Position numbers and translations under genes: made by a program. Below, piece by piece: positions 10,922 through 30,525 of a stretch of DNA of 64,000 nucleotides (position 1 is its first letter; each line of letters opens with the position of its first letter). The stretch comes from Prorocentrum cordatum. Taxonomy: Eukaryota > Sar > Dinophyceae > Prorocentrales > Prorocentraceae. The stretch is taken from positions 197,494-261,493 of the forward strand of contig CAUYUJ010001314.1 of assembly GCA_963575745.1 (NCBI GenBank). Reading direction: 5' to 3'. The notes under the pieces are model-generated. The model had not been told where the DNA came from. It saw nothing but the letters and a program-made list of their open reading frames with translations, and searched no databases.

Positions 10922-11060
10922 ATCTCCTTCGTATCCGTAAGGGCTTCGCCGCCGGCCGCCAGCCCCTCCTCTATCATAAATCAGAGTCGCGTCGGTGCGT
11001 CTCGGTGCATCTCGGGGCGGATAGGAATCATCAGCGCATATTGAGACGTTGGCATTGTCG

Positions 11061-11222
11061 AAGACGCTTACGGCGAATCACCGCCGCTCCCTGCCTTCTT
11101 GGAAGCGCCTGCGTGGCCGAAAGTTGGGTTTGAGCTTGGCCAAGCTATCGGGCCACGCGTTCCCCGAGTGGGTTCGAAAGCCTTCGGGGAACACGGAATC
11201 GGCTGAGCTATCGGACCAGGTG
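11061..11222 (+). repeat. Dispersed ~155-bp repeat flanking the minisatellite, copy 1
   Basis: Colinear with 29124-29272. Shared blocks are GAAGACGC, TACGGCGAATCACCGCCGC, GGAAGCGCCT, GTGGCCGAA, CCAAGCTATCGG, GTTCCCCGA and AAAGCCTTCGGGGAACACG. In both places it sits just left of the 21-bp-periodic minisatellite, so the pair behaves as one composite unit. Confidence 0.85.
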
Positions 11223-11500
11223 GTTTCCGAGTTTTCGGGCCTCCTGGAGGACGTCTTGGAGGGATCTTGGGCCGTCTTGGAGGCCTCTGGCGGGCCTTTT
11301 GGGCAGTCTAAGGCCATCTTCAGGCCATCTGGGGCCGTTTGGGGGGCATCATGGTGCCATCTTCGCCGTCTTGGAGGCCTTCTTGGCCGTCTTGGAGGCA
11401 TCTTGGAGGCCATCTTGACAGTCTTGGAGGCCATCTTGGGCGTCTTGAGGGCCTCTTGGGCCGTCTTGGGGTCTTGTTGGGGCCCTCTTGGGGGCCTCTT
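11223..11500 (+). repeat. 21-bp-periodic minisatellite, left flank of the LTR element
   Basis: Repeats of GGCCGTCTTGGAGGCCTCTTG and ATCTTGGAGGCC variants, interrupted at 11500 by the 5' LTR. The same family resumes directly after the 3' LTR at 27601, so the LTR element is inserted inside it. Confidence 0.9.
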
Positions 11501-11756
11501 GATTCTAAAGTGAGCTGTGACAAGGGCGAGATATTGCGAGCATTTGTCAAGCGGCCAGCCGCCAACATTTGACTGCGCCTCATTGTGAGGCATACTACTT
11601 GCCATCGAGACCGAAAACATCCTTCGCTTGAGATGGCCCGTGGCTCCCGCGACGACCTCCTACGACTGGGACTATCGCTACTACGATACAGCAGAGCAGG
11701 GGTTGTGCTTCGCTTAAGGCGTAGCTTCTGGACGGGCCCACCGGCCCCCGTCAAAC
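11501..11756 (+). repeat. 5' LTR of the copia-order element
   Basis: Aligns with 27310-27600 from GATTCTAAAGTGAGCTG (GACTCTGAAGTGAGCTG in the 3' copy) to CCCCCGTCAAAC (CCCCCTTCAAAC). Long identical blocks include CGCCAACATTTGACTGCGCC and CTACGACTGGGACTATCGCT. The 3' LTR is about 35 bp longer because of a 15-bp insert and an 18-bp tandem duplication (CCCGTCGCTCCCGCGACG). The ends are not the canonical TG...CA. Confidence 0.9.
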
Positions 11757-11757
11757 T

Positions 11758-11772
11758 TGGTAGCGGAGCTGG
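11758..11772 (+). promoter_or_regulatory. Primer binding site candidate
   Basis: TGGTAGCGGAGCTGG lies immediately inside the 5' LTR. It begins with TGG, the complement of a tRNA CCA end, and resembles the TGGTATCAGAGC initiator-Met-tRNA primer site familiar from many plant LTR elements. The tRNA used here would have to be checked against the organism's own set. Confidence 0.6.
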
Positions 11773-11836
11773 CCGATGGTGGTCAGGTCTAGTTCTACTC
11801 TTCACTATCCACGGCACTATCTGGTGGACTACTGAC

Positions 11837-13654
11837 ATGGCGGAACGTCAGGGTGCAGTGGGTTTGCGCGGAGGAATCTACATAACTACGCACAGTCGCA
11901 ATGACACTTGCAGTGTTACCTCTGCTCTCGCGGAGGCCTCTTATTCGAGTCCTACATCCCTGCGCTACTACACTCCTGAAGTCCACCCTATTCCAGATGA
12001 AAACTTCTTCGAAGATACCATGCGCGGCAACATGCGATACGATATTGTGCCGCCTCCCCCCCCCACGCATGCTTACAAAAAACACAACAAACTTGAGCCA
12101 ACCGCAGCCGACCATGACCTACGAGGCCACTGGATTGGCGCTGCTATATTTGGTCGCGTATGGGTTGCTATCGGGCGCGCTGTGGGACACATGCGTGGCG
12201 GAGACGACACAGGGACAACCGGCCTTCACTGGGACCCGGCCGGTCAAGTACCTTCCCGCAAATTGGCTCGAGAGGTGCATGCCTGGATCAATTGGACCAC
12301 AGGCAATATGGCGCCCCCCCAACAGGCTGCAGCAGCGCAGCGTGGTTTGGCAGGTCACGCACGGACCATAGCCATGAGAGTTCCCCCAGCAGTTATTAAT
12401 TTTGGCGTCAACATAGGTGGCCGCCATACTGATGGTGCCACCTACATTATGTTCCTCGTTCGCACGAAGTTTGAGAACTTGGAGGAGAACCGCCAACTTG
12501 ACTCGCGCACTACTCCCATCGACTTTCGAGTCCATGCGGGAGGACGGATCGACCAGACACTGGCGCGCTTCGAGATAGCCCGCTATGAGGCTGAAACGGC
12601 AGGCCTCAACATCCCCATCTTCCAAATCTTAACGGTTATTCTGTTCAGAGCCTGAGGCGTTGCGACGTCGGGTGCGCAACACTTTCTACAGCCACTTAAC
12701 CACCAAATGCCAAGGAACCAGCAGCAAATTGATTCTCTGCTTGAGCGCATGAGGTCATGTGCTCACATCGCTGAGCGAACCCTTGGCAATATTGGAGGCA
12801 TCTTCAGCCAAGGTCACCGCTCCGAAATCTTTCATGCTGAAGCCAACGCAGGGCAACCTGCCACGAACGTCACGAACGATGATCCACAAGCAACGGAAAC
12901 CACCGCGCTATCAGACCGAAGTGGTGGTTCGGCCGCGGGGTCGCAAGACTCCTGGGCCAGGTATCAGGGCCCGCTGGCAACGGCGGCCCCTATACAAACC
13001 ATTGCCCTTGTAGGCTCAACGGGGCAGCCCGCTGAGTCCGACTTCGATTCTGGAACCGACGCCGACGCGTCATCAGACGACGATGCGAATGCCCTAGACT
13101 AACTCCTGGCACCCTTTACTGGACCGCAATATGAAGAATTATTCCTGGGCGCAGGCAGGGGCCGTAGGCGCATTTCAGGAAAGGGCGCGGGGCGTCGGGG
13201 TAACCCGAAAGACGTTAACGGCAAAATAATGACATGTGACATCTGCCATAGCACACCACATTTTCGCCGTGAATGCCCCCGGGGCGATGGGGGAGGCAGA
13301 GGTCCGTCGGTGCATATGGCTCAAACCGAGTCGGAGATGCAGCATGTCGATTGGGAAAGGTCACTGGCCGACCCTGCTGACAATTCGGTTCGAGTCGTTA
13401 ACTTCATGACTGCCGGACATCTGAGTGCCAGTATGTCCCTCGAGAATTACGCCGGCGAGCTCTTCGAGGAGATATGAATTGGCCATGGCGAGATCACTCT
13501 GGCAGACTGGTTAGGCATGCCCATCGCGGGGCAACCTGCGCGCATCGAATTTGTCGAGAAGTTCCACATGCCGGCCGAACCAGATCAAAATATGGCGAGA
13601 CACCTGCGGATTCCGCAGCTACAATTCCATGGGCGGAAGAGGAAATACAAATGA
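11837..13654 (+). pseudogene. Gag polyprotein with CCHC zinc knuckle (interrupted)
   Basis: Nucleocapsid/capsid precursor of the LTR element. One reading frame (frame 2) runs from ATG 11837 to TGA 13652-13654, broken by TGA 12653, TAA 13100 and TGA 13475. Continuity of frame and composition across the three stops shows they are later mutations. The capsid-like part around 12370-12900 is Ala/Arg-rich and helical (residues such as FEIARYEAETAGLNIPIFQI). The nucleocapsid part has a perfect CX2CX4HX4C knuckle at 13235-13276 (C-D-I-C, H, C) preceded by an Arg/Gly-rich basic stretch, as expected for RNA binding. Two A-G-Q-P-A hairpins (12848 and 13526) sit in this frame, the second beyond the last internal stop, so the real product continued there. 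An alternative upstream ATG at 11585 lies inside the LTR and is less likely. Confidence 0.8.
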
Positions 13655-16600
13655 TGATGCGTCCCCAGGTAATTGGCAACCCGACAAACATGGAGGTATA
13701 TGATGACGATCTTCCGCGGGGAAACCCGCGAGGCACTGGCGGCGTTTCTGAGCGCATTCAGCGCGAACTTGGACACGACGAAGACCATCGGCTTGCATTC
13801 GTGACTACGCGGCGGTCTTGGAGCCGCCAGGAGCGATCAGCAAGCCGTCGAGTCTGGAGACGCGCTACCCGCTCAGACGATGATGGCGACGAGTGGGAAG
13901 CTGAAGACCAGCGCGCGCTGCGCCATGGTCGCGCCCGCAGTTTTTCACGCGGGCATTCGCGCGCGCGCTCCAGCGGTGCTCGCTCCAGCGGCAACCGGCG
14001 CCCTCATCCCCCCGATGCGAGGGCCCCAAGAACTCCACCGAGGAGGGATCGCATACCTGGGGCCCCGCCGAGGAGGGGGCGCCCGAGGGGAAACCCGCCT
14101 CGGAGGGAGGATCGCCCAGCAGCGCATCCAGCAGACGAGGCGCAGCGCCTTGTCGCGCAAACCCCCCGAAATGCAATGCTGGCTGGGCCAAGGTTAGTCC
14201 GATCACAGAGTTCGTCACTGGCACTCACTTCGCAATGTTGATCGGGGCGATCAAGGCAAGATAGTTCGCTCCAACAGGGGTGCGGGCACCAAATCACAGG
14301 AGTCTCTTCAAAGACGGGACCTCAAGAGGGCCGTCATCGAAGAACGGAAGACTAACCGACGATTTGCCTGCACTTGCTTCGATCATGCCGACCACAGACC
14401 CGGTTGCCCCATGAGGCGTCCATCAAGAAACTAACTTCGAGAGAACACCGCGGGTTTGGTCTCGCGGTGATGGTCTGGGTTGCGCCACAGATCCGTCCAA
14501 ATGCCCACGCGAAGAGCAGTTGGCGAGGATGGATACTCAACCAGCTAATGAGCATGAAAGAGTTCGTACCGAAGAGATGGAAGAACCTCGCTCCTAATCA
14601 CTACCTTTGGGCATTCAATCGCGAGTATCGCACGGGGAGACCCGCCTCGTCCAAACAAGAAGGTGCCTACCAGCCAGAAGGTGATGAAGCTGCAGGCGTC
14701 CTTGCCAAGGCACGTAGACCCCATCGAGGCTGCTCCTTCAGGGTCCGACTCGGACTACTCCGACACGGACCGCACTTCTGTCGCGGACGACACTCACGTC
14801 GCAGACGCAAGAATCGATCTTTGCGACAGGACCACGGAAGATATGGATCTTCCCCCAGGCAGAATAGTCGCCTACCACGCCAAAGCCGTAAGCTTGATAA
14901 AACCCCTTATTGTAAATCGCGTTAAAGATGACATGTATGTATTGAACTGCAAGGGCAAGGGGAAACAGGAGGACCTCAATCCCGGCAGAAGGCCCATGCG
15001 CTTCTTAGCGAAAAGCCTGCAGGGGCAAAGCCAAAGTACCTCCTCCCAAATCGAAGGCAAATCTACCACTAGATGTGCCCCCATCTCCGTATTCTTCAAG
15101 CCAGCCCAAGTCGCTCGGACCCGATCAACTTGCGCCACCGCTTGAACAGGAAGAGAAATAGCCCAGTTGATCCCAATCCTGGTAGCAGCAATCATCAGCG
15201 ATCTGCAGGGCAACCTGCTGGGAGACGTCGATCCAGAGGGGCCGGCAGCGGCCGCCGCAGCAGCTGCGTTCCGGGGCGCCAGCGCGCCCGCTCCAAAGGA
15301 TCCCGCGGCCCGTCGCGGCCTTGCACCTGGCCGGGCGCACAGGACAGGCTGGGCGCCATCACTGGAAGGATCATCAAGGGGCGCTTCTTCATCAAATGAC
15401 AGTGCCAAGCACCAGATATTGTAAACCACGTCGAAGGCATCGGGGGCGGCTTCCAAGATCAGTGGATGCCAGTATTTCGACATTCGTGAAAAGGAACGCC
15501 AGGATTTCGACATTCGCACTTCTCGAATTCCTACGCATCTGGGAGCGCCAGCTCGTCGGCAGCGCCAGCAGCGCCTGCGGCGTCCGAGCCAGCAAGGAGG
15601 CATGGCGAGCCAGATGCTGTTCCTGCGGTGCAACCCGCTGTTGCTCTCGATATGCCCGAGGAATGCAGGCGATATTGTGAGCAGTTGCGCACTGCCCAAC
15701 GAATGAAGATCAACCCAGCGTACCAGCCTTCCTTCGATGACGGGTCTGATCGATGCGTTGTGGCGCAGTGCGACATCCAGTGCACTGCCGTAATTTGCTA
15801 AAGACGCAGCTCACACACGCCAGGTTGTCCGCAACGTCTTGCGGAAGGAAGCCGCTCTCAGCTACGACTCTGAGAAGAAGTATGTGAAGAAGATCCTCAG
15901 GGAGTCGGAGGTTGTTGCAGCAACGCTAAATGCCGAGGAACAGCGTGCATGTTCAGAGTGGCCACCGCAGCTACTCGTCACAATCCGTTTCATCATAACC
16001 ATCTGTCTGACAGGTTCGTGTCATCGGTCGCTTCTTTCGATGACTACCGACGGCTGGGTGGAGCTCTCGGACTTGCCCAACAACTGGCCGCCCAAGGGCT
16101 ACGAGCACTGGCACAAACGCCACCCGAAGACGGTCTAGAGGTGCCTCAGGAACCGCCATTCGGCATATCAGGCATTGGTGGCGTTGGATTTGATTGGCAC
16201 GGTCGACAATTCAGACATGCAGAAGAACAGGCCCCAGGTAAGGAAGCTCAAATACGCTAGCGAGTCTCAACCGGTGTATTTCTGAGCCCACGTAATGAGC
16301 ATAGCAGCCCTGGCATCAAGTCCCCTGAGCCCCATGCACAAAAGGATAACCGATTTGATTGACATCACCAGGAGCACCTTGCTATTTTATCCGTGGTACC
16401 ACATGGGTAAATATTCCGAACGTACTTCATGTCGGACTGTCATGCCGCGCTGATGATACTGTCAATGAAAGGGGCAGACAATTTATTCATGGGTGCCCAT
16501 GTATACCTGCAGGATTCAGTCCGGCCTGCGCGTAAATTCCGAAGTAGTAGTTCTAGTAAGTCTGAAAAAACTTACTTCGCGACAGTCTTGCAAGTTGGTG

Positions 16601-17038
16601 TTCCGCGAATGTCATTATTATGACGGCAGGTCGGGGAGGCAGGATCCCGCCGAGCCACCTCGTCCAGGTCGTAGGCATCCAGCCTAATAAGATTCAATGT
16701 GTATATGATCGAGTAGGACAGGTGGATCAATCTTTTGTGCATAAAGGACAACGAGCAGAGAAATCTGCGGGCTGACAATTTTCCCGAATCCACATAGGAG
16801 ATTCCACGTGACGCATCGACGCTGAGGAATTGGTTCATACCTCAGACCACATGCAGGAGGTCGAGTTCAGTACGGTATTTATGATGCAAGAGGGATACCA
16901 AGCGGGGACACCTGCAGGGGGATCAGATGGATCATGGATTCAGGTCCAGAGCGCGGACGTATCTATATGACATCCAATGGGATTACGCCCAATGACGGGG
17001 TGTAAGTCAACGACCCGTGGCGTGCTCAGACGCAACAG
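13655..17038 (+). other. Unassigned internal segment of the copia-order element
   Basis: About 3.4 kb between Gag and the RING-like segment. Open pieces at 13474-14241 (Arg/Ser-rich, RS-like), 14374-14925, 15073-15399 and 15839-16138 are in different frames and show no catalytic motif I recognise. Hairpins of the GCRGG/CCYGC family at 13716, 14632 and 15205 show that it belonged to the same coding element. I read it as decayed polyprotein sequence with several indels. Confidence 0.5.
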
Positions 17039-18772
17039 TTGCCAGCATCTGCAGGGCAACCTGCTTCGTTCGCGCCCATGAGCAGGGCTACGACTCCGTT
17101 TAGAGCTCCACAGAGCGCCGGGAGCACCAATATCCTGCAGGCGAAGCCCCGGAGCATTCGAATGGACCCACAGCTCTACCAGACCTTGCAAGCGACATCG
17201 CCGTTCGCATCGCCACATCAAATCGCGGGGCGCCCTGCTTTCTCTGACCACGAAGTCGCCCAGAGGGCTGAAATCATGACAGGGCAGAAAAAGTGGATGC
17301 ACAGACAGATGCGCGAGGCCATGCGGAGCATGCGTCGGGATGGCATTGACCTCCCGAGCGCCAGCTGGACACCCCCATGGGGGTATATTCCGGATCCCAA
17401 CCCATCGCCGGATAATCCCAATAGGTACGGGAATGTTCCAGCGTTTTTCAGCCACCCGACATGCGACCCAACGGCTGCTGAGCGACCTTTGCAGCACCAC
17501 CGATGGACGCACCGATGTTTCCTGACTACTAGGCTCAGGAGACGGTCAACCCACGCGCGGGGTCTCAGCCGGATAACCCGTATGTTCGGGTGACAGCCGA
17601 CGACTTCTACCAGTCTCAGCTGACACGCGGCTCCGGATACGAGTCTGGAGTACTCGGCCAAATACCTCATTGCGGTTATTCGGCCACCCACCCCCATGGA
17701 TCCTGATGCGATGCAGCAGGCCCCCGGTTTGGTGGCGCCATCGTCCGTGGGGGAGCTGCGCCCAGAGATTCTGGCCATCCACGAGGCGCAGCAGGCCAAC
17801 CTCACCGTGCAGTTGGCCCGCAAGCGTCGCAAAGAGCGACAGGCGCGCCGTCTGATGGGCCGTGCGGGGCAACCCGCTACTCCAATTTCTGCGGGGATGC
17901 CTGCTTCCTATCTGGCGCCGCTTGCAGCTATGCAGCCACCGCCGGCCCCGCCGATCCAGCGCGAGATTGGTGAGTCCACGCTGGAGCGCCACACGCGCAT
18001 CAGGCCATCGGCAACGCCACCGATCATCAGTGACGGTGGCTTTAAAAAGTGAGCCATTTGCCTGGGCAACTCCGCCAACCACGACAAGGTTTGGAGGCTT
18101 CAGTGTGGCCGCATATATCGTGCACAATGCTGGGATCGATTGGCCCATGCACATGTGGATCGGCAGTTGGCAGGCACGTTAGAAGGTACCGCGAGCGAGG
18201 CTCCCTGTGCCATTTGTAGGGGTGTTGGTCTTATCGCAGTTGAGTTTCACTGCGCCCTAGCCGGAGATCAGGACGCAGCAATTTGCCATGAAGAGATACT
18301 CCGTGGGGCTCACGAGCTCAGAGACCTTCGCGAAGAGCTCAACCGCATCACGGGGATGACGATAAAAAACACGGCAGCTGCCTCAATTACACCTGCAGGG
18401 CAACCTGCGTCATCATCTTGCGCGGTGCAGGCGACAGCAGCTATCGCGCGTGCCGCAGATACGCCTATGTCCTTAGTAGCTCAACCAGCAAGCTATGCAG
18501 GCACACCTGCTGCGACGGCACCTGCGGGGTTACCTGCTAATGATATGTGGTTGAGGCGTATGGAGAGAGCCACTGAGAGAAGTGCGCGTTGGCTCCAAGC
18601 ATCACATGTATACATGCCTCACGGGCGTGACGCCCGCCCGCGCGACCAGCGTAGAGCGGAAAGCGCGGTGAGCGCACGCAGCGGAACCAGTGCCATATCC
18701 GAGCGTGGCATGCTACGCACTGTGTTGATGGTGAACACAGACGGACAGGTAGCCATGCGCGCCGATTCATGA
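17039..18772 (+). pseudogene. Polyprotein segment with RING-like cysteine cluster
   Basis: Frame-2 reading from 17039, open again at 17696-18052 and 18140-18772. The part before 18052 is Pro/Ala-rich with four hairpin-encoded A-G-x-P-A motifs. Directly after it comes a candidate RING-type zinc site. At 18051 a TGA stands where the first cysteine of a C-x2-C pair would be, followed by A-I-C-L-G-N, then L-Q-C-G-R-I-Y-R-A-Q-C-W, and about 37 residues later C-A-I-C-R-G. The spacing fits a C3H2C3 RING in which two histidines are now Arg and the first Cys is a stop (TGC to TGA would be one change). The family function would be ubiquitin-ligase-like; in this copy it cannot work. The segment lies just upstream of the protease, so it was probably part of the Gag-Pol precursor. 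The RING call is inference. Confidence 0.45.
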
Positions 18773-18991
18773 ATATGCCGCTCTCATCTGCACAACGCAC
18801 TCACATGCACGACAAGCACCCGTCGGCCTGGATCTTCGAGGAAAACCATCACAGAGGAAGAGGCCCGAGGTTACATGAACGTCGTCGCGTCTCTGACGAG
18901 GAACGATTGGGTGTTAGAGCAGAGGCGCCGAAAAGGTATGCATGGAACCGCGCTGTCCGAAATGCCCGGAATATTCGGATAACGCCATGAA

Positions 18992-19456
18992 TTGGCCCTG
19001 GCCACGAACAGTGGGACCATGGCGGACGAAATGCTGACGATCCTGCTGGACATCGGCAGCAACATCAACATCATCGGTCTGGAAACGGCACAGACGTTCG
19101 AGCGTGTGTCCCGCTACCATGGGCACGACGTCAAGAAGCTGAACTTGACGAAGAGGCTTTGCGTGTCGGGCGTGGGACATGGTGCCGCTATCTGCGACAA
19201 GTCCTTGCATTGCAAGATCGCGTGCAAGGAGAGAGGAGATCCCGCGGGGAACCAACCCTTTATGTCTAGGCTGGACACCTACTCAGTTAACGTGGCTGAG
19301 GGTTCCGGTGAACATCTCCCTGCTATCCTGGATCTGAGGGGTATGTCCAATATGGGGACCACCCTGATCCTGGAGCAGGGGCACGAGAAGATGGCCACCC
19401 CAGGCTTTGAGATGCATAAGCTCCTCCTTGGGAAGGAAAGGCGCCAGGGTACTTGA
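18992..19456 (+). pseudogene. Retropepsin-like aspartic protease
   Basis: Frame-2 ORF of 154 codons. The active-site motif L-L-D-I-G-S-N-I-N-I-I-G is at residues 18-29, with the catalytic Asp codon at 19049-19051. This is the D-[ST]-G-[AS] loop of retropepsins with Ile in place of Ser/Thr, followed by the usual hydrophobic strand. Retropepsins act as homodimers and cleave the Gag-Pol precursor. The flap region is plausible but not diagnostic. It lies between the RING-like and methyltransferase-like segments, earlier than the integrase, which fits copia order. The degenerate hairpin at 19242 gives A-G-N-Q-P instead of A-G-x-P-A. Confidence 0.7.
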
Positions 19457-20132
19457 TATAATGAAAACGCCCTCAGGGCACCTGGCGATCAAGGTCGACG
19501 AGTGCGGGGCCGCAACGGAGGATAAAGGCTCAATGCCATTCACTTAATGGCCAATCCTCACTGCGAAGATGCCCCGTTGCTTGTGATGGAGGCAGCTGAC
19601 ACAGAGCCAACTGCAGGGCAACCTGCATCGAGCAGTGCGGGGGCGCCCGCTACTAACGATGCCCATGCATATGATGTCTCCGGATACCAGGGGCATTTGC
19701 TCCTCCATTAATGAGGAGACGCTTGCTTTCGCGATTCAGTTTTTGGTGAATGACACCCTGAAGACGTGGCATCGCAGGAGTACGTCCTATGGGAGTGTTC
19801 CCACACCTGCCGATCAGGATTTCGCCTTGCGCAACTTGCAGGCAAAGGCGCATCGGGCCATCTATGAGGAGGGCAGCGAGTGGATGCCGCCCGGCTTGAA
19901 TGCAGGGGCACCTGCAGGAGCAGATGATGCCGCTGAGAAGTTTGATATTTTCACTTCGAGCAGTGGCTCAGCAGCGCAGCGCGGCACCGGCATTTGGACG
20001 CCCCCATCGCTTGAAAATGAGTGACGGGGGCAGGCGCGCGCCTCGGCCACTCGCGCTTGCTCCGAATGGCCGAACGCTGAGGTTCTGTCCTCAGGCGAGG
20101 GGGAACCTGCATGCTTTTCCCAGGCGCCGGCT
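19457..20132 (+). other. Unassigned segment between protease and methyltransferase-like region
   Basis: ORF 19635-20024 (frame 3) and a short frame-2 piece around 19600-19700 together carry three hairpin motifs (19613, 19637, 19902), giving A-G-Q-P-A and two A-G-A-P-A. No enzyme motif is visible. Probably linker sequence of the same polyprotein. Confidence 0.45.
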
Positions 20133-22061
20133 ATGCGCGCCAGGGATATTGGCAGGCTTGGCTGCGCGGCCGCCAGAGACGGCAGTGGGCCCGGCTGTGT
20201 GGCCGCTGCAGCACATGAACGCTCGTCGCATCATTCTCGTGCACTCGTCATTGAGGACATACGGACAGCTTGCGCTGAACTCCGAGCTCGTGGGTTCATG
20301 TGCGACAGTATCACACGCACAGAGGTTATGACCTCTACGGGTTCACAGTATTTGGGTGGATTACTCTCGGGGGATTACCAATTTCTCTGGGTAGCCACGC
20401 CCGCTGACTGGCACGTTTGGTTGCCTGGAAAGCGGGCGGGAACACGTGATCAACGTATCCAAAATTTGATCAAAGCTCGGGGTCTACGCATGACTATAGT
20501 ATTTGTTGGGCCACCAGGTTACTTCTGGAAACAAGTTCCCATACGAGATGCTGTTGAAGATCTAGACTTCCAGGTCATGCGTATGCGTTGGTGCCCTGTC
20601 GGTTTGAAATATGACCGTTCAAGTAAACTGCCTTGTGGATCGTGTCTGCAGGTGGCAACCACCTATACGCGCATCCCGACTAACTTGTGGAGTTGCACAT
20701 GCCAAACTGCAGGGGAACCAGCACAATTTGCTGAGCATGAGCTGGGCTGGCATGGCCAAGGCGCTCAGAGGGCAGAGTGGCGCAACAAAACTCTTGCTAT
20801 CATGGTTGCAAGGCTGACCGACCAAATGGGTTTGCATAAGACAAGGAGAAGCCATATTAGTGCTGTGCATCTTAGCATCCACGCAAGAGTGGATACAGGA
20901 TCTCGAACTTACGCTCAGTCCCTTAAGAATGGCCCTGAATGGGGCCATGTTGTGAGACGGGTAACAATGATACTGGACGACAATACTGTTATACAAGATA
21001 TTATGATCCAAAACCAACCTATCGGGTACAATTACAATGCGCCGTTACCGAGTCGTGTGACAAATATTCGCACTCGGTTGCACTGGGAACCGCCGGCGCC
21101 GGTTCTCACCGGACAAGAGGGCCAACGACCGCGCCCAAGGCGGGTTGCGTTCGTCGACGACCATCGTCTGCCCCCCCTTCGATGGAGCGTGGCCGCATGC
21201 TCACCTCTATTCCTGAATTTCCGACACGCAGTTCATCCGATGCTGAACAACAGACAGCACTACCGACACATGCCCGGATCAATCAAAAGGAAAAGCAGAA
21301 AGCCGACAAAGAAGCGGGCATCAAGCCTTGCAAGATACCCAAAGTACTCGAAGAAGGCAATGACGACTGCGGTGACGACCTAAAGGGTCTCGGATGTAGT
21401 GCTTGTTGCACCGATATTCCCCTCGGCTCCGACACTGAGAGCGATGACGAGGAAGAAACCTTCATCGCGCTACCTGCGGGGCTACCCGCGGATGCACATG
21501 CCGATGTTCTCGGTAATCCAGACCTTATGTTACGGACGACACAACAAGGTCGACATGTTGGAACTGCGTGGAGGAAGCGGGGGAATATCGCAGTTGGCAA
21601 TCAGCTGAGGCTTGTCCCCCGGAGGAAACTTAGACGAACGTTCATATGTTGACCTTGGAAACAAGGACGTCCAGGATGCAGTGATGCATTATTTCGACGT
21701 GTGCTTCGCCAATGTTGTCATATTGCAACTTAGCCGCAAAACGACTGGACTACCATCTTATTTCAATTCCCGAGTCAATTATGACACGCGGCATGAATAC
21801 CATAAAGAAGACCTCCCAGACATCAAGTTATGTGGGGAAGTTGCCATGCGTCAAAACGACCTTCGACGGTTTTACTTACGAGAACAACCGGTGGTCATTT
21901 GGGTGGATCGAATGCAGCCATGGACAACAATGGCCAAATTCAAGGGCACTTGCAAAGTAAATACGGATCAATGTACTTCTGGTCTACGTGACTCCCATGG
22001 CATATTGATGCGGCAACCGACCGATATAATGGCGAATCATCGTCTCTCACTTACCTTTTGA
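20133..22061 (+). pseudogene. Methyltransferase-like segment of the copia polyprotein
   Basis: Frame 3, interrupted by TAA 21381 and TGA 21606. Two modules are visible. Module 1 (about 20360-20700) has W-V-A-T-P-A-D-W-H, then I-V-F-V-G-P-P-G-Y-F-W and a C-x2-G-L-K-Y-D cluster ending W-S-C-T-C. The layout parallels the G-T-P-C, E-N-P and Y-G-x-x-W-K-K-P-T landmarks of the methyltransferase in the neighbouring tyrosine-recombinase element, but with Ala in the Cys position. Module 2 (21555-22050) begins with M-L-E-L-R-G-G-S-G-G-I-S, a glycine-rich SAM-binding motif-I candidate, then Y-V-D-L-G-N, and ends with R-Q-P-T-D-I-M-A-N-H, comparable to K-P-T-x-x-x-x-N in C5-methyltransferases. The TGA at 21606 is probably CGA mutated at a CpG. 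Domain identity is inference from motif order and needs a profile search. Confidence 0.45.
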
Positions 22062-22113
22062 ACGAAGGCGGTGTACTGGCCATCACCAACATGCCTCGGT
22101 ATGCAATAAAGAA

Positions 22114-22680
22114 TTGTCTATGGCTGCACAATATACCTCAAAGATGCTGACCCTTTTTGTCGATGCAATTCAGAGCGCACACGATCTATTCCAAGTAAAC
22201 CGTGATCCTTGTCATGGCCACCCTTATATTTCCACCGTTCTTGTAACCAACGCGCGGGGATTTGATTTGGGCGGCCCAACGATCCCTCGACAACCCGACG
22301 GGTCGATCACGAGACAACCCTCGGGAGGATTTGGATGCCTTACATGTGCAGATAATGTGAATATGCATTTCCCCTCACATGACAGAGACCCTAAACATTG
22401 CAGGTGTTACGATAAGGAAGATTACCATTGGGAGTGTCCGCGTTGCAAGAAGAACTACGGCCAGAATAAGCCTGATCACGCACAGACACCCGGCGCATGT
22501 AAGTTTGGCAAACCTTGGAAACTGCCGACAACCACGGACAGGTACCACAGGTTCCTGCCGAACCGGCAGCACCACCACCCGAGGCACAAGCCGCGCCGCC
22601 ACTTGTGCGGCTACGAGCACCGAGACCCGCCTCCAGGGCTGGCCCCACAGCTGGCGCCAGCAGCCACGACATTACAGTAG
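22114..22680 (+). pseudogene. Cys/His-rich zinc-binding segment
   Basis: ORF of 188 codons directly downstream of the methyltransferase-like region. Cysteine pairs include C-L-T-C-A-D, a H-C-R-C-Y-D cluster, W-E-C-P-R-C-K-K and, after a His, P-G-A-C. Such spacing suggests two zinc-binding clusters, plausible as a nucleic-acid-binding appendix to the methyltransferase-like part. Downstream the frame turns Pro/Arg-rich. An overlapping frame-3 ORF (22515-22928) holds two hairpin motifs (A-G-R-P-A and A-G-N-P-A), so the true frame probably shifts there. Confidence 0.45.
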
Positions 22681-22934
22681 GCAGACATGCTGCTGAACCT
22701 GCTGCGGGGCGACCTGCTTCGAGTGGAGCTGGTAGCTCGGGCGACCACTGGCGACTGCCACAGATCAGAGCCAGACGTTGCCGACAGCAGGGAGGAGATC
22801 CACCTCCACCACCACCTGCGGGTAACCCTGCTGCGCGCCCGCGACTCCCAGACCGGTCAGGGTTTGATGTTCAAACCAGCTTTCAAAATTACCCCAGTGC
22901 GACCCTACCTAGAAGTTGGAGCCCCTAGGAAAGC

Positions 22935-23590
22935 AGCATTCGTTGCTATGCTATGCCATGCTATGCTGCGCTATGTTATGCTATGCTATGCTATGCTGCG
23001 CTATGCTATGCTAAGCTATGCTATGTCACGCTGTGCTACGCTATGCTATGTTATGCTATGCTATGCTATGCTAAACTGCGCTATGCTATGCTACGCTATG
23101 CCAAGCTAAGGTAAAGCTAAGCTAAAGCTAAGCTAAAGCTAAGCTAAGCTAGCCCTCTAGGCAGAGCCTGGGTAGGGAATTACACCCATGCTAATGCTAT
23201 GCTTCGCGGTGCTGTGCTGTGCTGTGCTGTGCTGCGCTATGCTGTGTTATGCTTTGCTGCGCTATGCTGGGCTTTACTATGATATGCTGTGCTGCGCTGT
23301 GCTGTGCTACGCTCTGCTTTGCTATGCTGTGTTCTGCTATGCTAGAGCTCGGCGAAGCTAAGATGAAGGTAAGCTAAGCTAAGATAGACCTGATCTAAGA
23401 TGAAGCTTAGCTCAGCTAAGATGAAATAAGCGAAGCTAAAATGAGATAAGCAACGCTAAGGGAACGTCACTAGGGCGGGGCGGATCCTGGGGAACCGCCC
23501 GGGGCGGGGGGCACTGCCGGCCCTTTATGCGCACAGGGTACGAACCCTTCTAGGCAGAGCCTAGGTAGGTAACTTACGAAGCCTTGACCC
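22935..23590 (+). repeat. Low-complexity GCTAT-type insert within the copia element
   Basis: GCTATGCTATG and GCTAAGCTAAG degenerate pentamers/decamers cover 22950-23450, with a GC-rich island at 23470-23530. A ~30-bp direct repeat, CCTCTAGGCAGAGCCTGGGT and its variant CTTCTAGGCAGAGCCTAGGT, occurs at about 23152 and 23549 and brackets the second half. No coding frame continues through it, so it separates the zinc segment from the integrase and looks like a later insertion or expansion. Confidence 0.85.
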
Positions 23591-23594
23591 AAGC

Positions 23595-24219
23595 GTGGTA
23601 CCACGCGAAATGAGGAAACTACATTTGCGTTGGTTCCATGCTAAAGAGCTTAAGATGAGGCTCAGATCAACCAAAGCCGGTCTGGACAGCATCAGGCTCA
23701 GCCTGATCAAAGGCGTCTGTGACACGCGTCGGGAGTGCAGGGCTCGGGACATGCCGGGGCATGCCGTTATGCCATCTACTGCACTACCTGGCAAGTTCAA
23801 TGAAGACGTCGAATGCGACCTTCTGTTCAACAAACAGGAACACAATCTATTTCATCGTTGATCGTTGTATTCGATATGCCACTGGAGTGGAAATACCAGA
23901 TAATCTGCTGACCAGTATCTTAGATGCGTATCATCAGTGCTGGATGCAGTTCGGACCTGCCAAAGTACTCTACTCCGATGGGGAGGGTGCCCTTAATAAC
24001 GACATTGCAAAGGCAGTCCTTCAGGCAAAAGGCACTGAGCTGAGGATGCGCGCGCGTGGACAAAGCGCTATGGCAATCGAAGCCAGAAATGACAGAATAC
24101 GTCATCTACCTCATGTCATGGAAACTGAACTCAAAAGGTTTGACATGCCTCTTGTTTTCACACGACTACTGCACGAAGCCCGGTTTGCCGTCACCGTCTA
24201 CAGCGAGGTGTCTCCATAA
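23595..24219 (+). pseudogene. Integrase: zinc-binding N-terminus and DDE core
   Basis: Copia-type integrase, frameshifted once near 23845 (frame 3 to frame 1). The N-terminal part has H-L-R-W-F-H and a downstream C-D-T-R-R-E-C, a plausible HHCC zinc site. The catalytic core reads I-V-D-R-C-I-R-Y-A-T-G (first Asp), V-L-Y-S-D-G-E-G-A-L (second Asp) and M-A-I-E-A-R-N-D (Glu), with 33 residues between the second Asp and the Glu, close to the usual D,D-35-E spacing. The enzyme would insert the element's cDNA into the genome. It lies upstream of RT, which sets the copia order. This copy is non-functional because of the frameshift. Confidence 0.8.
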
Positions 24220-25171
24220 TGCCTCGTTTGGACGGCAATCGGCAATGCTTCCTGACCTGCCTGTTCTGGATCATGAACAGCCAACAGAAACGTCTGACCA
24301 TTCTCGAGAACAGGTGATACGCAGGGTAGGCATTGAAGCTATCGCACAGGCTACTGCAGTAGCCAAGACCAATCGTGCACTACGTACTAAGACGATTGTC
24401 ACCAGTCAGCATTACTACGATGCAGAAGATTTGGTTGACTATCATCGACTGGGAAGGCTGGAGTGGCCCGTTCCCAGTTGTACGGCATGGTCCCGACAGT
24501 GGTCAAGTCATCATTCGAGTGGGAAGTCGCGATGTACAAGTCCATTATGGCGACGCACGACATTCACTTTAGAGATTGGCTCTGACAGCACTGCGTTGCG
24601 GACAGTGTTGACTTTTGTTGCCAGTTTACCTGCGGGGAGACCTGCTATGACATTTGGTGATGTCCCGACCAGAAGGGGATCACTTCAGATGACCAGCGCA
24701 TTCTGCATCGAGAATGTAGTCTCTGTTAGGTTAGCTAATAAGAGTATTCACAAGTTACCTCCGGTGGCTTATGATGATAGTTGCACCTTGGTCCATGATG
24801 ACAATGATGTGCATCCAGGCTTGCGTTGCTATGAAGCAGAAGGTACTGCCCTCAATATTCATGGTATAACTGGATCAGCACATTCGAGAATCTTTCAGTG
24901 CCTGCAGTCTACTAAACCTCAGGCGGGCTTTGACCAGGATATGACAAAGTTTGAGGAATTGGCGGACATACCGACGCAAGACGAAAACGCCAGAGAAGCC
25001 CCGGAAGCCGAACCACCACAGGAGGATGGACGGCTTCCTACGATATATGTGGAGTCGGAAGCGAACCTTGAGGCGCACATATGGAAGTGTGGTTCGCAGA
25101 ATTACGTGAAGAAAGGGAACTACTGGAGGCAAATCCATTCGATGATCTTCGCACTGTACCCACACACATGA
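24056..25171 (+). pseudogene. Integrase C-terminal region and Pol linker
   Basis: Frame-2 ORF of 371 codons whose first part is only a shadow of the integrase core. From about 24240 it reads as real Pol sequence (L-P-D-L-P-V-L-D-H-E-Q-P then a helical Ala/Thr/Lys region). At 24440-24570 the better reading is frame 3, with E-G-W-S-G-P-F-P-V-V-R and G-Q-V-I-I-R-V-G, a beta-rich block like the C-terminal DNA-binding domain of retroviral and copia integrases. After that frame 2 resumes as an acidic linker to the RT, with one hairpin motif (24632, A-G-R-P-A). Confidence 0.6.
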
Positions 25172-25487
25172 TCGCCGATAACAGTGCGCTGGTCACCGTA
25201 GCTGCATGAAGAACGGCGGGGGCACCTGCCTAAGTAGGGCTACCCGCGCGACTCCGACATCGAGACGTATCTTGTCCTATTATGCACTACGGTCGAAGAC
25301 CGCAGCTACGGATTGGACTCGGACGAAAATGGTCAATATGTAGATCCCTGCGCCACGGCAGAAGTGACAAAGGTAGTCCTATCCGAACGACAACGCAGGA
25401 TATTCGACGTCGACCGTGTAACCGCCATGCGAGTATGTCACTGCCGCTGCAAAACGAACTGCGGTTGTCAATTAAGACGACCTCCTT

Positions 25488-27164
25488 GTGAAGGCCGACA
25501 TCCGGGCGGATTCCGAGAAGGTATCACAGGCCCTACACACTGAATTCAAGACATGGTTTGACCCCAAGTGTTTCAAGATGCAAGATAAAGCGTCAAACAT
25601 CATGACTTCGAGATGCGCACATAAACGGAAGTTCGTGAAGAACGAAAAGGGCGAGATGGAAGGTGCCATCAGATTTCGCTTGGTGCGTCGGGGTTTCGTT
25701 GACGTCGAAGCTTTTGACGCGGAAACCCGCTCAGGAACAGCGCGGCGGTCGATCCAGGGATTACTCGCGAGCGCGGCAGCGTGCGAGAAGCAATGGATCA
25801 TTGCTTCCCCTGACATCAACATGGCTTCCTGGAAGGATTAACCTGCCAGGAACTTGCTGAGGCAACTGGTGAGAAGGAACGCGTGGTGTGATTTACCTTG
25901 CCGCCTGGCCGGCAACGGTGCGTCGATCCCTTCCAGGAGTTGAGCACTGCGACGAGTCGAAGCACTGCCTGCAGTGCCTCAAGCCAAGCACCGGCACCAA
26001 GGACGCACCCGGAGCTATCTCACTGAAACTCAGAAGGACCACGAGAGGCTCTGGTCTCAGACCCACGCCCTGCGGCAAGGAGTTCGAGACGAGCAGTGAC
26101 CTGCTCACAGATGACATTACTATGGCCGGCGCTGAGGGCACCATTGACATGTGCGTCAAGTGCGTAGATGGCACTTTTGGTAAGTGTAAACTCAGCAAAC
26201 ATACATATACCAATGGTGCTGTGAGGTACACGTAGGATGGCGACGGCAATGTCACATTGTACCGAGATGCATGCATCCAACAGCTCCGTCCTATACAACA
26301 TCCTGAACTCACCGGCGCAGACGCTGCCGCCAAGGCATCCAAGATGGTCGCGGACATGTTCGCCAGCCTCAGAGGCGCATTGGCTTACGCATTAATCACC
26401 CAAGTCTGGTGGGTGGTATATGTGGTCTCTCTACAACGCGCCCAAGTACCGACCAACATGCAAGTGCGACGACTAGATACCAGGAAGCTGCAGGCCTGCC
26501 CGAAGAAGATCATCTTTCAATCGATGGCTCCAACGGGCGAAGTTGACCTGCGCAGCGACTCCAGCTATCCACGCCTGAGCGGAGATGCTGATGGCGATTT
26601 CAATGGCTACGGTATTCGCGGGGCAAACCTGCTACGGCGAGGAACCACGCCATCCGGTAAGCCTGTCGCCCATTTGATCGATGCGCACTGCAAGTCTCGC
26701 CGCTTGCAGGCCCGCTCGAGCTATTCAGCAGAGACACTTGCAGCAGCCCGCAACTTGGAGGACTGCTATCCCACGACTGTAACTCTGCACGAGCTCCATG
26801 CAGGTCCGTTGATCCCTACTCAGTTGCAATGCATACTTGAGATGGGTGGCCTGAGCATTAAGGTCACTTCGACCATAGATGATGAATCGGTTTCAAGTCC
26901 TTGTCAAGCAAAGACCTGAATAATCTGACTGAGTGTCCTCTTTTAGGACACGTCAGTTGGATGCGACAGACGATGGAGCGAGGCATCGTGCATAGCATTC
27001 AGTGATGCGACACTCGCGACATGACCGCGGACGGTCACACAAAGGGGAGCATTGATAGAGATATGCTCCTGCAGGTCATGGGAGGTAAGCAATCCTTCAA
27101 GCGTGATCTAAAGCGTGATACTCCATGTCGGGCTGGCCAGGCAACTTTGTTTGCGGCCGCCTGA
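25488..27164 (+). pseudogene. Reverse transcriptase and RNase H of the copia element
   Basis: Pieces in frames 3 and 1. RT starts at about 25488 with a basic region (I-R-F-R-L-V-R-R-G-F). Motif A is I-A-S-P-D-I-N-M-A-S-W at about 25800. After a frameshift at 25842 motif B-like sequence appears (C-L-K-P-S-T-G-T-K-D-A-P), and motif C is L-L-T-D-D-I-T-M-A-G with the Asp pair at 26110-26115. RNase H shows L-R-S-D-S-S-Y (Asp codon 26557), Y-S-A-E-T-L-A-A-A (Glu) and T-I-D-D-E-S-V (Asp). The C-terminal part continues past the stop at 26919 as C-D-T-R-D-M-T-A-D-G-H-T-K-G, after one more TGA, to the final stop at 27162-27164. This Asp-Met-x-x-Asp-x-x-T-K-G end is typical of copia RNase H. Several inactivating changes are present. 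Confidence 0.85.
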
Positions 27165-27309: not shown

Positions 27310-27600
27310 GACTCTGAAGTGAGCTGGAACAAAGGCGAGAGATAGCGAGCGTTTGTCCGCTGCTGTTTCTGCTCCAGCGGCCGGCCGCCAACATTTGACT
27401 GCGCCTCATTGTGAGGCATACTACTTGCCATCGAGACCGAAAACACCCTTCGCTTGAGATGGCCCGTCGCTCCCGCGACGCCCGTCGCTCCCGCGACGAC
27501 CTCCTACGACTGGGACTATCGCTACTGCGATACGACGAAGCAGGAGCTGTGTTTCGCCTAAGGCGTAGCTTCTGGACGGGCCTACTGGCCCCCTTCAAAC
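27310..27600 (+). repeat. 3' LTR of the copia-order element
   Basis: Partner of 11501-11756. It contains an 18-bp tandem duplication (CCCGTCGCTCCCGCGACG region, 27466-27500) and a CTGCTGTTTCTGCTC insert near 27360 that the 5' LTR lacks. It is directly followed by the minisatellite that also precedes the 5' LTR. Confidence 0.9.
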
Positions 27601-30525
27601 TTGTTGGCCTGTCATTGGGCCGTCTTGGAGGCCTTTTGGGCGATGTTGGGGGCCTCTTGGGTTGTCTGGGCCATCGGGGGGCTGAAAAGAAGAAAATACC
27701 ACAATCCTTCAAACACCGAAGGGACATCAATGATTTTGGTCTCTTCGTGCCCTCCTGGTGGAGCTCTTGGAGGCCTAGTGGGGCCTTCTTGGGTAGTTTT
27801 AGGCCATCTTGGAGCCATCTTGGGCCGTGTTGGAGGTTTCTCGGACGAACTTGGAGGCATCTTGGACTCTCTTGGGCCGTCTTGGAGGCTATCATGGGCC
27901 ATCTTGGGCGAACCTGGAGGCCATCTTGAGCCATTTTGGGCATCTTGGAAGCAATCTTGGAGCCATCTGGAGCAGGAACAACTTTTGGAACCACCCTTTC
28001 TGGGCCATTCCGGGATCCCGGCGGGCGGGGCCGAACCCCCTCTTGGAGTTCTTTTGGGACAAGAGCCAACACCAAAAGCGACAGGATTCAAAACGTCTTG
28101 GATGCCATTTTGGTCGTCTCGGAGGTCATTTTGGCAGTCTTGAGGTATATTGGAGAACATCTTGACCGTTGTTGAGCCCTCTTGGGCCGTCTTGGGGCCC
28201 TCTTGGGGCTGGCTTGAAGGCTTCTTGGGCCGTTCTGAAACCATATGGGAGGCCTCTGGGACTAGTTTGGGGACTCCTTGGGCCGTCCTAGACGGTCGGA
28301 ACACCAAAATCGAGGAAAAGCCAACATCTTTCAAAAACCTTAGGACCGTGGAAGATTTTGGCTCCCTCGGGCCTTCCTGGAGCACATCTTGGACTCCTCT
28401 GGGGCAATCTTGGAACCTCTCGGGCCCATCTTGGATCATCTTGGCCGCCTTAGCGGCCGTCTTGGCCGTCTTGAAGCTCATCTTGATTGTGTTGGAAGCA
28501 TCCTGGAGGCCATCTTGGCCGTCTTGGAGACCGTCTTGGGCGTCTTGGAGGTCTCTGGAGCCGTCCTGGCGCCCTCTTGGGGCCGTTTTGGGGGCCTCCT
28601 GGGCCGTCATGGGGCCATCTTGGAGGCCTCTTGGGCGCTCTGGGGGCGATCTTTCGGGCTCATTGGGCCGTCGTGAGCCGTCGGAAGGCTCGAAAAGAAC
28701 AAAAGCCCACATCCTTACAACATTCCAGGATAACATGGATTTTGACCTTTTCGGGCTCTCGTGGAGGACCTCTTGGAGGCCTCTTGGGCCGTCTTGGCCT
28801 CTGGGGCTGTCTGGGGCCGTCTGGGAGGTTTCTTGTGCGAACTTGGAGGCATCTTGGACTCTCCTGGGCCGTCTTGGAGGCCATCTTGGACCATCTTGGG
28901 CGAACCTGGAGGCCATCTTGGGCCATCTTGGCGATCTTGGGAGCAATCTTGGAGCCATTCGGGGCAGGAGCAACTTTTGGAACCACCCTTTCGGGACATT
29001 CCGGGACCCCGGTGGGCGGGGCCGAAACCCCTCTCGGAGTTCTTTTGGAAGAAAACCTCAAGGCCAAAAGCGGAAGGATTCAGCACGCCGGGCACCCTTG
29101 TGATGAATCAACAGGGAGCGGCGGATCGAAGACGCCTACGGCGAATCACCGCCGCCCCCTGCCTTTGTGGAAGCGCCTATGTGGCCGAACGTTGGGGCCA
29201 GACCTGCCAAGCTATCGGACCATGTGTTCCCCGAATCGGTTTGGAAAGCCTTCGGGGAACACGCGGGCATCTTGAAGGTCATCTTGGCCGCCTGGAGGCC
29301 ATTTTGACCCTTTCGGGCCTTCTTGGAGGACGTCTTGGAGGGCTCGTGGGCCGTCTTGGAGGCCATCTTGAGCGTCTTGGAGGCCTCTTGGGCAGTCTTG
29401 GGGGCCTCTTGGGGCTGTCTTGGGCGCCTCTTGGGCCGTTGTGGGGCCATCTTGGAGGCCTCTTTGGCGATCCTTGGGCGATCTTTGGGAGCTCTTGGGC
29501 CGTATCGGGCCGTCGGAAGGCCGAAACGAAGCAACTGTCAAATTCTTTCAAAAACCTTAGGAAAATCACTCTTTTGGCCCTTTCTGGCCTTCCTGGAGGC
29601 CCTCTTGGAGGCCTCTTAGGCCGTCTTGGGCCAGCTGCGAGCCACCTTCGGCCATCTTGGTGGGCTCCTGGCCCGTCTGACGCCGTCGGAAGCCGTTTCG
29701 GGGGCCTTTCTGGGCAGATTTGGGGCCCTCCTGGGGTGCTCCAGGGCCGTCTTAGAGGCCATCTTGGGCGTCTTCGAGGCCTCTTGGGCCGTCTTGGCGC
29801 CCTCTTGGGGCCGTCTTGGGGGCCTCTTGGGCAGTCATGGGGCCATCTTGGAGGCCTCTTGGGCGATCTTGGGGCGGCCTTGGCGGCCTCTTGGGCCGTC
29901 ACGGGCCGTCGGAAAGCCGAAAAGGCGCAAATGCCACCTTCAAAATCCTAGGGAAAATCAAGGATTTTGGCCTCGTCGGGCCTTCCTGGAGGAACTCTTG
30001 GAGGCCTCTTGGGCCGTCTAGGCCTCTTGCGGCCCTTTTGTGCCGTCTTAGACCATATTGGGGCCATCTTGGGCCGTCTTGGATACTTCTTGGGGCCATT
30101 TTAGCCGTTTTGGAGGCCATTTTGGCTGTCTTGGAGGCATCTTGCAGGCCATCTTGGGCCATCTTCGCGTTTGTTTGAGGATGTCCCGAGCGAAACGGCC
30201 GTTTTTGGCGATGGCAAAACCGAGAGGGTTTAACACGCCAGGCACCCCTTTGATGAATCAAAAGGGGGCGGCGGATCCTAATGGCCCTTGACCCATCCCG
30301 CCACCGTGCCTGGGTTGTGGGTCTGAGGCCTCTTGTATGTGTTGGGGTGTCGTGGGGAGCTCTCGGGGGCCTCGTGGAGGCGGTTTGGGCGCCTCTTGGG
30401 GGCCTCTTGGGGCCTCGTGGGATATCTTTTGGGCCTCTTGGAGACCTCTTGGGCGCGTCTTGGGCGCCTCTTGGGACTTCTTGGGGCCTCTTGGCCTCTT
30501 GGGGCCTCCTGGGGGCTTCTCGGGG
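27601..30525 (+). repeat. 21-bp-periodic minisatellite, main block (~2.9 kb)
   Basis: Degenerate tandem units such as GGCCGTCTTGGAGGCCTCTTG, with CATCTTGGAGGCC, TGGGGCC and TCTTGGGCC variants. Units of 21 bp and multiples keep frames open on both strands, so minus-strand ORFs up to 453 codons and plus-strand ones up to 396 codons (Ser-Trp-x-x-Leu heptads) arise without being genes. A higher-order duplication is clear: about 27820-28100 matches 28812-29095 at an offset of 992 bp, including CAACTTTTGGAACCACCCTTTC-like (27977, 28968) and GGCGGGGCCGAA blocks. Non-minisatellite inserts are the dispersed repeat at 29124-29272 and a module at 30177-30290. Confidence 0.9.
29124..29272 (+). repeat. 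Dispersed ~150-bp repeat, copy 2
   Basis: Second copy of 11061-11222, again directly left of minisatellite units. It is preceded at 29085-29123 by CACGCCGGGCACCCTTGTGA and TGAATCAACAGGG, a block also found at 30233-30272 as CACGCCAGGCACCCCTTTGA and TGAATCAAAAGGG. Confidence 0.85.

Follow-up and report, generated by a model that had tools for sequence, protein, structure and literature searches.

A conserved array of 14-nt sense-strand RNA hairpins in a Ty1/copia-type element family of Prorocentrum cordatum

A decayed Ty1/copia-type long terminal repeat (LTR) element occupies about 11.5-27.6 kb of a 64-kb stretch of the Prorocentrum cordatum genome (hereafter the window; G000:C1314:197494-261493 in a 4.13-Gb assembly) and is home to all of the window's hairpins. 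These 14-nt hairpins, found also in related copies, almost certainly form a conserved RNA hairpin array that is selected as structure and as sequence and is fitted into a locally tolerated reading frame. Computation showed that the hairpins are locked to the sense strand, that their paired positions covary, that the letters of the stem ends and loop are fixed, and that the array is independent of frame and peptide.

An earlier note on this DNA had reported about 20 GCRGG-N4-CCYGC units in one LTR element. We found 20 exact instances of GCRGGNNNNCCYGC in the window, all at 12848-25229 and none elsewhere, where 1.25 (standard deviation 1.07) were expected by chance and none of 100 shuffles reached 20. 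The variable pair was never A-C, as the note had also stated for 19 copies; we counted seven A-T, four G-C and nine G-T. Ten of the 20 loops were GNRA, and 15 were GNNA. At least nine degenerate copies were present in the same element, bringing the total to about 29 sites.

Ten further copies of the element were taken from clusters among the first genome-wide pattern matches listed and another, C130, was added from the A-T matches, giving 12 copies including that of the window. Since they were chosen for holding hairpins, per-copy numbers do not describe a random sample. A decayed relative (L008) and L001-L004 were excluded from every count. The young copies C1, C83 and C2c were 93-96% identical in BLAST pieces, and an old group, consisting of seven copies and the window copy, was 69-82% identical. 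C130 represented a divergent third subfamily, 64-75% identical to C1 in DNA matches. At the protein level the two shared 48-70% identity from integrase through reverse transcriptase (RT) to RNase H, 42% in Gag and 28-43% between these. The sites of the window are listed below, with their state in an 11-copy alignment where available.

12848..12861 (+), exact hairpin GCAGG-GCAA-CCTGC; orthologous site in 10/11 aligned copies, G-C in young and A-T in most old copies
13526..13539 (+), exact hairpin GCGGG-GCAA-CCTGC; site in 9/11 aligned copies
13716..13729 (+), exact hairpin GCGGG-GAAA-CCCGC; frame P-R-G-N-P-R
15205..15218 (+), exact hairpin GCAGG-GCAA-CCTGC
16902..16915 (+), exact hairpin GCGGG-GACA-CCTGC; site in 11/11 aligned copies
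17051..17064 (+), exact hairpin GCAGG-GCAA-CCTGC; site in 8/11 aligned copies
17225..17238 (+), exact hairpin GCGGG-GCGC-CCTGC, loop not GNNA; site in 11/11 aligned copies
17864..17877 (+), exact hairpin GCGGG-GCAA-CCCGC
17891..17904 (+), exact hairpin GCGGG-GATG-CCTGC
18395..18408 (+), exact hairpin GCAGG-GCAA-CCTGC; young counterpart GCGGA-GCCA-TCCGC, compensatory at two pairs
18497..18510 (+), exact hairpin GCAGG-CACA-CCTGC
18524..18537 (+), exact hairpin GCGGG-GTTA-CCTGC
19613..19626 (+), exact hairpin GCAGG-GCAA-CCTGC
19637..19650 (+), exact hairpin GCGGG-GGCG-CCCGC
19902..19915 (+), exact hairpin GCAGG-GGCA-CCTGC
21476..21489 (+), exact hairpin GCGGG-GCTA-CCCGC; site in 10/11 aligned copies
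22704..22717 (+), exact hairpin GCGGG-GCGA-CCTGC; in 8/8 old and 0/3 young copies, with an 18-nt length difference
22818..22831 (+), exact hairpin GCGGG-TAAC-CCTGC, loop not GNNA; in the 11-copy alignment
24632..24645 (+), exact hairpin GCGGG-GAGA-CCTGC; site in 10/11 aligned copies
25216..25229 (+), exact hairpin GCGGG-GGCA-CCTGC; young counterpart GCAAG-GCCA-CTTGC in frame Q-G-H-L-P
16755..16768 (+), variant hairpin GCAGA-GAAA-TCTGC, from the alignment
13195..13208 (+), variant hairpin TCGGG-GTAA-CCCGA, first pair T-A, from the alignment
13019..13032 (+), decayed hairpin site ACGGGGCAGCCCGC
14085..14098 (+), decayed hairpin site GAGGGGAAACCCGC
14632..14645 (+), decayed hairpin site ACGGGGAGACCCGC
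15625..15638 (+), decayed hairpin site GCGGTGCAACCCGC
20097..20110 (+), decayed hairpin site GAGGGGGAACCTGC
20709..20722 (+), decayed hairpin site GCAGGGGAACCAGC; exact in four old copies, absent from the three young
25234..25247 (+), decayed hairpin site GTAGGGCTACCCGC; exact in the three young copies

The 11 further copies followed the grammar GC-NN-G[GNNA]C-N'N'-GC, a 14-nt unit with a 5-bp stem. Positions 1, 2, 5, 6, 9, 10, 13 and 14 were fixed, the two middle pairs were free but paired, and two loop letters were free. Oriented matches to GCRGGGNNACCYGC in 11 copies numbered 202 in the sense of the element and four antisense, with G-C in 95, G-T in 69, A-T in 38 and A-C in none; with the loop left free, one of 244 core stems was A-C. 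The sense-strand lock claimed in the earlier note thus holds relative to the element, but not as evidence separate from the absence of A-C. Because GCRGGNNNNCCYGC is identical to its reverse complement, a G-T copy appears as A-C when the opposite strand is read. Strand therefore shows only in the loop and in the choice between G-T and A-C, and the absence of A-C and of reverse-strand copies in the window are a single observation.

The template GCNNGGNNACNNGC was chosen without requiring the middle positions to pair. It matched 292 sense sites in the 12 copies (14-36 per RNA), 271 of them paired, and eight antisense sites, none of them paired, while control templates with reversed or complemented letters gave 6-8 matches per strand. 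At pair 3-12, G-T occurred at 77 of the 292 sites and A-C at none, as expected from G-U wobble in sense RNA. In C130, 36 of 38 template sites were paired, in 11 different middle combinations, and relaxing a single pair or loop letter each time yielded 0-3 other forms against 36 canonical ones. A 6-kb stretch of C26 held 18 sense template sites (16 paired) and no antisense site. Some latitude was seen at the closing pair 5-10 of the young copies (G-C 102, C-G 17, A-T 13, T-G 6, T-A 6 and A-C 5) and at loop position 9 of the old ones (A 133, G 33). A stem longer than 5 bp was rejected for C130 and C2c, where a sixth pair was formed in 2/36 and 5/36 hairpins, and is less clear for the old copies (38/139). 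Regular spacing, considered as a packaging ruler, was also rejected, the coefficient of variation ranging between 0.53 and 1.18 over the 12 copies.

Each subfamily had its favourite pair and loop: G-C with GCCA or GTCA in the young copies, G-T or A-T with GCAA in the old ones, and GAAA in the C130 type. Within a given element, the hairpins seem to undergo concerted evolution (L005-L030). A cluster of GCGGG-GCTA-CCCGC on the minus strand of G000:C19:62077-65690 had a different dominant loop and might represent either a fourth subfamily or a different element.

For covariation we used the 38 C130 sites, which comprise 24 distinct sequences. The score was 0.548 against 0.085 in shuffled data, where none of 500 replicates reached it, and no more than 0.149 when slid; 98.3% of the cells were paired, against 75.7% after shuffling. 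Many sites in the 11-copy alignment were common to the subfamilies, with pair and loop changing together. Column 3317 was G-C in the young and A-T in most old copies. Compensatory changes were found at columns 3698 and 19625 (young GCGGA...TCCGC, old mostly GCRGG...CCYGC) and at column 32160 (young GCAAG...CTTGC, old GCGGG...CCYGC), the latter with one G-T intermediate in C2a. C130 and the C26 stretch, 74% identical, differed by double compensatory changes at sites 889, 2534 and 6032, and by one-sided changes leaving an A-C mismatch in one copy at sites 4607 and 4910. Over their 17 aligned sites a single change fell on the eight fixed positions, at position 1. Among 72 orthologous comparisons of young copies, 13 of the 14 positions showed no difference and loop position 7 showed six, where 4.5 per position were expected. 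In 419 ordered comparisons of old copies, differences ranged between 0.01 and 0.09 at positions 1, 2, 5, 6, 10, 13 and 14 and reached 0.22 at position 9, against 0.29 overall.

The earlier note had stated that nearly every site encodes Ala-Gly-x-Pro-Ala. This is true of most sites, but the open reading frame (ORF) at 13716 reads L-P-R-G-N-P-R-G, and the young counterparts of 25216 read Q-G-H-L-P, with R-G-H-P-P at an adjoining second site. The A-G-x-P-A frame (phase 0) was used by 23/31 coding sites in C1, 26/35 in C2c and 24/33 in C83, and usually in the window subfamily as far as its decayed copies are readable. In C130, phase 2 was used by 23/34 coding sites, which read mostly x-x-G-N-x-P, and sites 15014 and 15192 lay past the last long ORF. 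One could argue that A-G-x-P-A recurs in the polyprotein as a linker, a cleavage motif or a binding motif, and that the hairpin is a by-product of codon usage, since most young-copy sites encode this peptide in long open frames, often in Ala/Pro-rich stretches. We regard this as hardly tenable. Apart from the C130 frame and the hairpins outside long ORFs, the codons themselves argue against it. In the usual series GCR GGG NNA CCY GC, the x codon mostly ends in A and varies in its first two bases, the opposite of the pattern expected from selection on the protein; in the young copies loop position 7, the sole varying position, is the first base of that codon and not the third. Some compensatory changes at orthologous sites also fall on positions that alter the amino acid.

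Comparison with codon-matched shuffles, as the earlier note had proposed, gave a clear excess of 27-35 hairpins observed against 0.8-1.5. The ORFs over 600 aa of C1, C2c, C83 and C130 were shuffled 300 times each among synonymous codons, keeping the protein and counting overlapping ORFs each. They held 31, 35, 33 and 27 hairpins against shuffled means of 0.88, 0.76, 0.90 and 1.46 (maxima 4, 3, 3 and 5). Because subfamilies use different frames, compensatory changes replace amino acids, and the hairpins are lost when only the protein is kept, the RNA hairpin is what is conserved and not the peptide, contrary to that part of the earlier note. A-G-x-P-A is mostly a tolerated by-product, and the peptide follows the RNA.

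Individual sites were shown to be gained and lost while the array persists. At columns 27291 and 29486 a site found in most or all old copies was absent from the three young ones, with an 18-nt difference. The young copies differed by a 30-nt and a 2 x 24-nt tandem duplication, each adding hairpins, and a 21-nt hairpin-bearing indel separated C1 from C83 and C2c. The sites thus come and go between subfamilies and are not fixed, ordinary linkers, a possibility that the earlier note had raised against itself. Its comparison with an inserted palindromic element of the Rickettsia type fared worse. A coding-compatible micro-element inserting itself and spreading within the retroelement would account for the presence and absence of sites at orthologous coding positions, for the 21-nt gain or loss, and for the near-identical hairpins inside each subfamily. 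However, the young copies had three distinct indels of at least 12 nt that carry hairpins, two of them 24- or 30-nt units duplicated locally in tandem, and no target-site duplication was seen by eye. The C130 hairpins have just eight letters in common and so do not represent copies of a single sequence, the 14-nt grammar persists although positions turn over, and the strict sense orientation would in any case require selection at the RNA level. We consider such an insertion very unlikely.

Five isolated 14-mers had folding energies of -7.1 to -9.3 kcal/mol, and in local folding the hairpin had a probability above 0.5 at 31/35 sites in C130 and 21/36 in C2c. Such stability, together with the GNNA loops, would suit an RNA structure that gives stability or compaction by GNRA-like loops and tertiary contacts, in the absence of a specific protein. 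This explanation is unlikely, though less so than the insertion of a micro-element: the fixed GC/GC stem base and G-C loop closure, with free middle pairs between them, look like sequence-specific recognition, and C130 and C2c keep a stem of 5 bp.

Genome-wide, oriented counts on both strands (reversed-letter control in brackets) were 30980 (3390) for G-C, 13618 (734) for A-T, 14238 (1509) for G-T and 2951 (938) for A-C, a raw odds ratio of about 10 for pairing at the variable pair. Three of the first six A-C matches listed proved to be G-T sites of fetched copies seen from the antisense strand. A two-by-two design with transversion arms (TC/GA against GA/TC; patterns GCTCGGNNACGAGC, GCTCGGNNACTCGC, GCGAGGNNACTCGC and GCGAGGNNACGAGC) was counted for GCTCGGNNACGAGC only, whose arms GCTCG...CGAGC gave 6752 matches against 1552 in the control. 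Strands were split about equally, for example 6638 against 7600. The earlier note had named such equality as evidence against a sense-strand array; it is approximately true but uninformative, since the family is inserted in both directions.

The window copy of the element retains the following parts.

11501..11759 (+), 5' LTR, partial match; 79.9% identical to 27310-27603 by self-comparison
12110..12580 (+), Gag N-terminal region; tblastn with the C1 copy, 61% over 158 aa, 2e-54
13172..13354 (+), Gag CCHC zinc-knuckle region, by homology to C1
16359..16763 (+), decayed Tpt1/KptA-like RNA 2'-phosphotransferase region; 36% to its C1 counterpart, which has a PF01885 match at 3.7e-15
18020..18277 (+), RING-finger region, by homology to C1
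18995..19435 (+), aspartic-protease-like region, by homology to C1; no Pfam match, and presumably a protease from its DIGSN motif
23610..24147 (+), integrase region, by homology to C1; weak rve match in the window ORF, E 0.019, under the Pfam cut-off
25527..26343 (+), copia-type RT region; RVT_2 in the C1 copy
26611..27116 (+), region homologous to C1 that we take to be RNase H
27310..27603 (+), 3' LTR, partial match, by self-comparison with the 5' LTR

The assignment to Ty1/copia follows from the LTR pair (79.9% identical in the window, 99.0% in C1) and from the domain order, in which the integrase precedes an RVT_2-type RT (2.5e-11 in C1) and RNase H. The same self-comparison gave no LTR pair in the C2c, C83 and C130 stretches. 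Gag, Tpt1/KptA-like, RING, protease-like and integrase regions were present in 12/12 copies, the zinc knuckle in 11/12, and RT and RNase H in 10/12 (not found in C2b and C96). The Tpt1/KptA-like region (PF01885; also L005:8752-9261) and the RING finger lie between Gag and the protease-like region. A literature search found no case of Tpt1 inside a retrotransposon among the papers it surfaced. A simple repeat of the GCTATGCTATG type was inserted at 22930-23460 of the window, just upstream of the integrase region, and the element's flanks (11049-11513 and 26919-29000) contained repetitive TCTTGGAGGCC-like sequence giving long low-complexity ORFs.

With 14-36 sense-only motif sites per RNA whose positions turn over, the array has the look of repeated binding sites for a trans-acting protein. 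One idea of the earlier note, that RNA structure recurs on the sense strand and may serve for protein binding to the genomic RNA, is supported by the strand lock and covariation. Judging from sequence, the hairpins are probably repeated recognition sites, and a single trans-acting RNA-binding protein may bind them where they are dispersed on the genomic RNA. The likeliest reader would be the element's own Gag. Its zinc knuckle gave a weak Pfam match (E 0.0022, under the cut-off), and an arginine-rich segment, KRRWRRF..KP.R..RR...RR, was found in 11/12 copies (partial in C2a and C136) and is common to the subfamilies. A specific role for Gag and packaging is about evenly balanced. Many Gag molecules would then recognise, condense and package the RNA of about 15 kb, much as happens through dispersed packaging signals in some RNA viruses. 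We tentatively suggest, at slightly below even confidence, a hairpin 'barcode' along the genomic RNA that is read by Gag, kept through frame changes and turnover and concerted per subfamily, and that would amount to a dispersed packaging code in a retroelement.

Several observations weigh against an RNA array read by Gag. In the window copy the hairpin had a probability above 0.5 at only 7/15 sites and appeared in the minimum free energy fold of 3/8 stretches, which is unsurprising for a decayed copy; in 3/5 copies, real flanks folded the hairpin worse than shuffled flanks. Among the 292 template sites 21 were unpaired, and pair 4-11 lacked the wobble asymmetry (G-T/T-G 8, A-C/C-A 9). Templates altered to a C-G closing pair (41 against 18) or with GC swapped (17 against 3) also leaned to the sense strand, and the C26 stretch held two sense A-C sites. 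Two of five C130 covariation measures did not exceed the shuffles (pairs changed on both sides, 2 against 2.0; further pair types, 7 against 7.4), and cell counts are not independent events, as copies share ancestry. The arginine-rich segment was not found upstream of the zinc knuckle in the window copy, where it was probably lost. It was present in at least four of a set of 13 distant relatives of Gag, proteins in which neither A-G-x-P-A nor R-G-N-x-P is repeated, and so is not specific to array-bearing elements.

This last point would also suit a different binder, either a host protein for export, localisation, stability or translation, or the element's own Tpt1/KptA-like or RING protein. 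The same RNA evidence (template pairing, synonymous shuffles and C130 covariation) applies to it, and the Tpt1-like and RING regions in all copies offer an RNA-acting module besides Gag. However, no single candidate is favoured by the data and, by reasoning only, 14-36 sites per RNA exceed the need of one export or stability element. We regard a binder other than Gag as possible but rather unlikely.

Relatives beyond the family were few. Two scans of a viral contig collection confirmed 0/3 and 0/60 pattern matches as relatives, and one scan of a genome contig collection confirmed 2/59, both remote (21-24% identity) and in a Rhodobacteraceae metagenome-assembled genome. Among 77 RT-region relatives, known from proteins alone, there were seven A-G-x-P-A matches against none in reversed sequences, no protein having two or more, and 19 matches to the other-frame motif against 13 reversed. 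The 13 Gag-region relatives, likewise known as proteins, gave two A-G-x-P-A matches, both in P0090, named Prorocentrum cordatum (27% identity), and none had more than one other-frame match. Rfam gave no match at E<=1 within 11400-27700. No such hairpin array in an LTR retrotransposon was found in a literature search that covered few subscription papers.

Viral dispersed packaging signals are stem-loops inside coding sequence, and in RNA viruses their motifs are degenerate and therefore hard to pin down. The array resembles them in consisting of multiple stem-loops that share a sequence and structure motif and lie within coding sequence. It differs in its carrier, an LTR retrotransposon, in a far less degenerate motif, and in that binding by Gag is here only inferred. 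The viral model is that of Twarock, Stockley and colleagues for single-stranded RNA viruses (PMC6281560). If the proposed code is real, dispersed packaging arrays would extend to LTR retrotransposons, with coding sequence bent around an RNA code. The motif is near-invariant and occurs tens of times in an element and tens of thousands of times in the genome; together with natural covariation, frame changes, and gain and loss, this makes the dispersed-packaging idea directly testable. The hairpin also serves as a sense-strand marker with which to trace the element family in a 4-Gb dinoflagellate genome.

Retroviral nucleocapsid binds stem-loops. Unlike psi, which is local near the 5' end, the array offers 14-36 equal sites over about 15 kb. 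Recognition of retroviral genomic RNA by Gag is described in PMC8036536 and PMC8096270. In hairpin size, 5-bp stem and GNRA-like loop the unit is also like boxB. The lambdoid boxB is a hairpin of about 15 nt with a 5-bp stem and a GNRA-like pentaloop that is read by the arginine-rich N peptide; it serves phage antitermination at few sites, whereas the reader of the retroelement hairpin is a guess. Rickettsia palindromic elements are bacterial repeats within coding sequence that multiply by inserting a single sequence in whichever orientation. The hairpins share with them the tolerance of palindromic repeats in coding sequence, but the orientation (292 against 8), the 11 C130 combinations and the tandem duplications behind two of three indels do not fit that mode of spread. 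They differ further in being only 14 nt long, in covarying at the RNA level, and in keeping, in the copies examined, to one strand of one element family.

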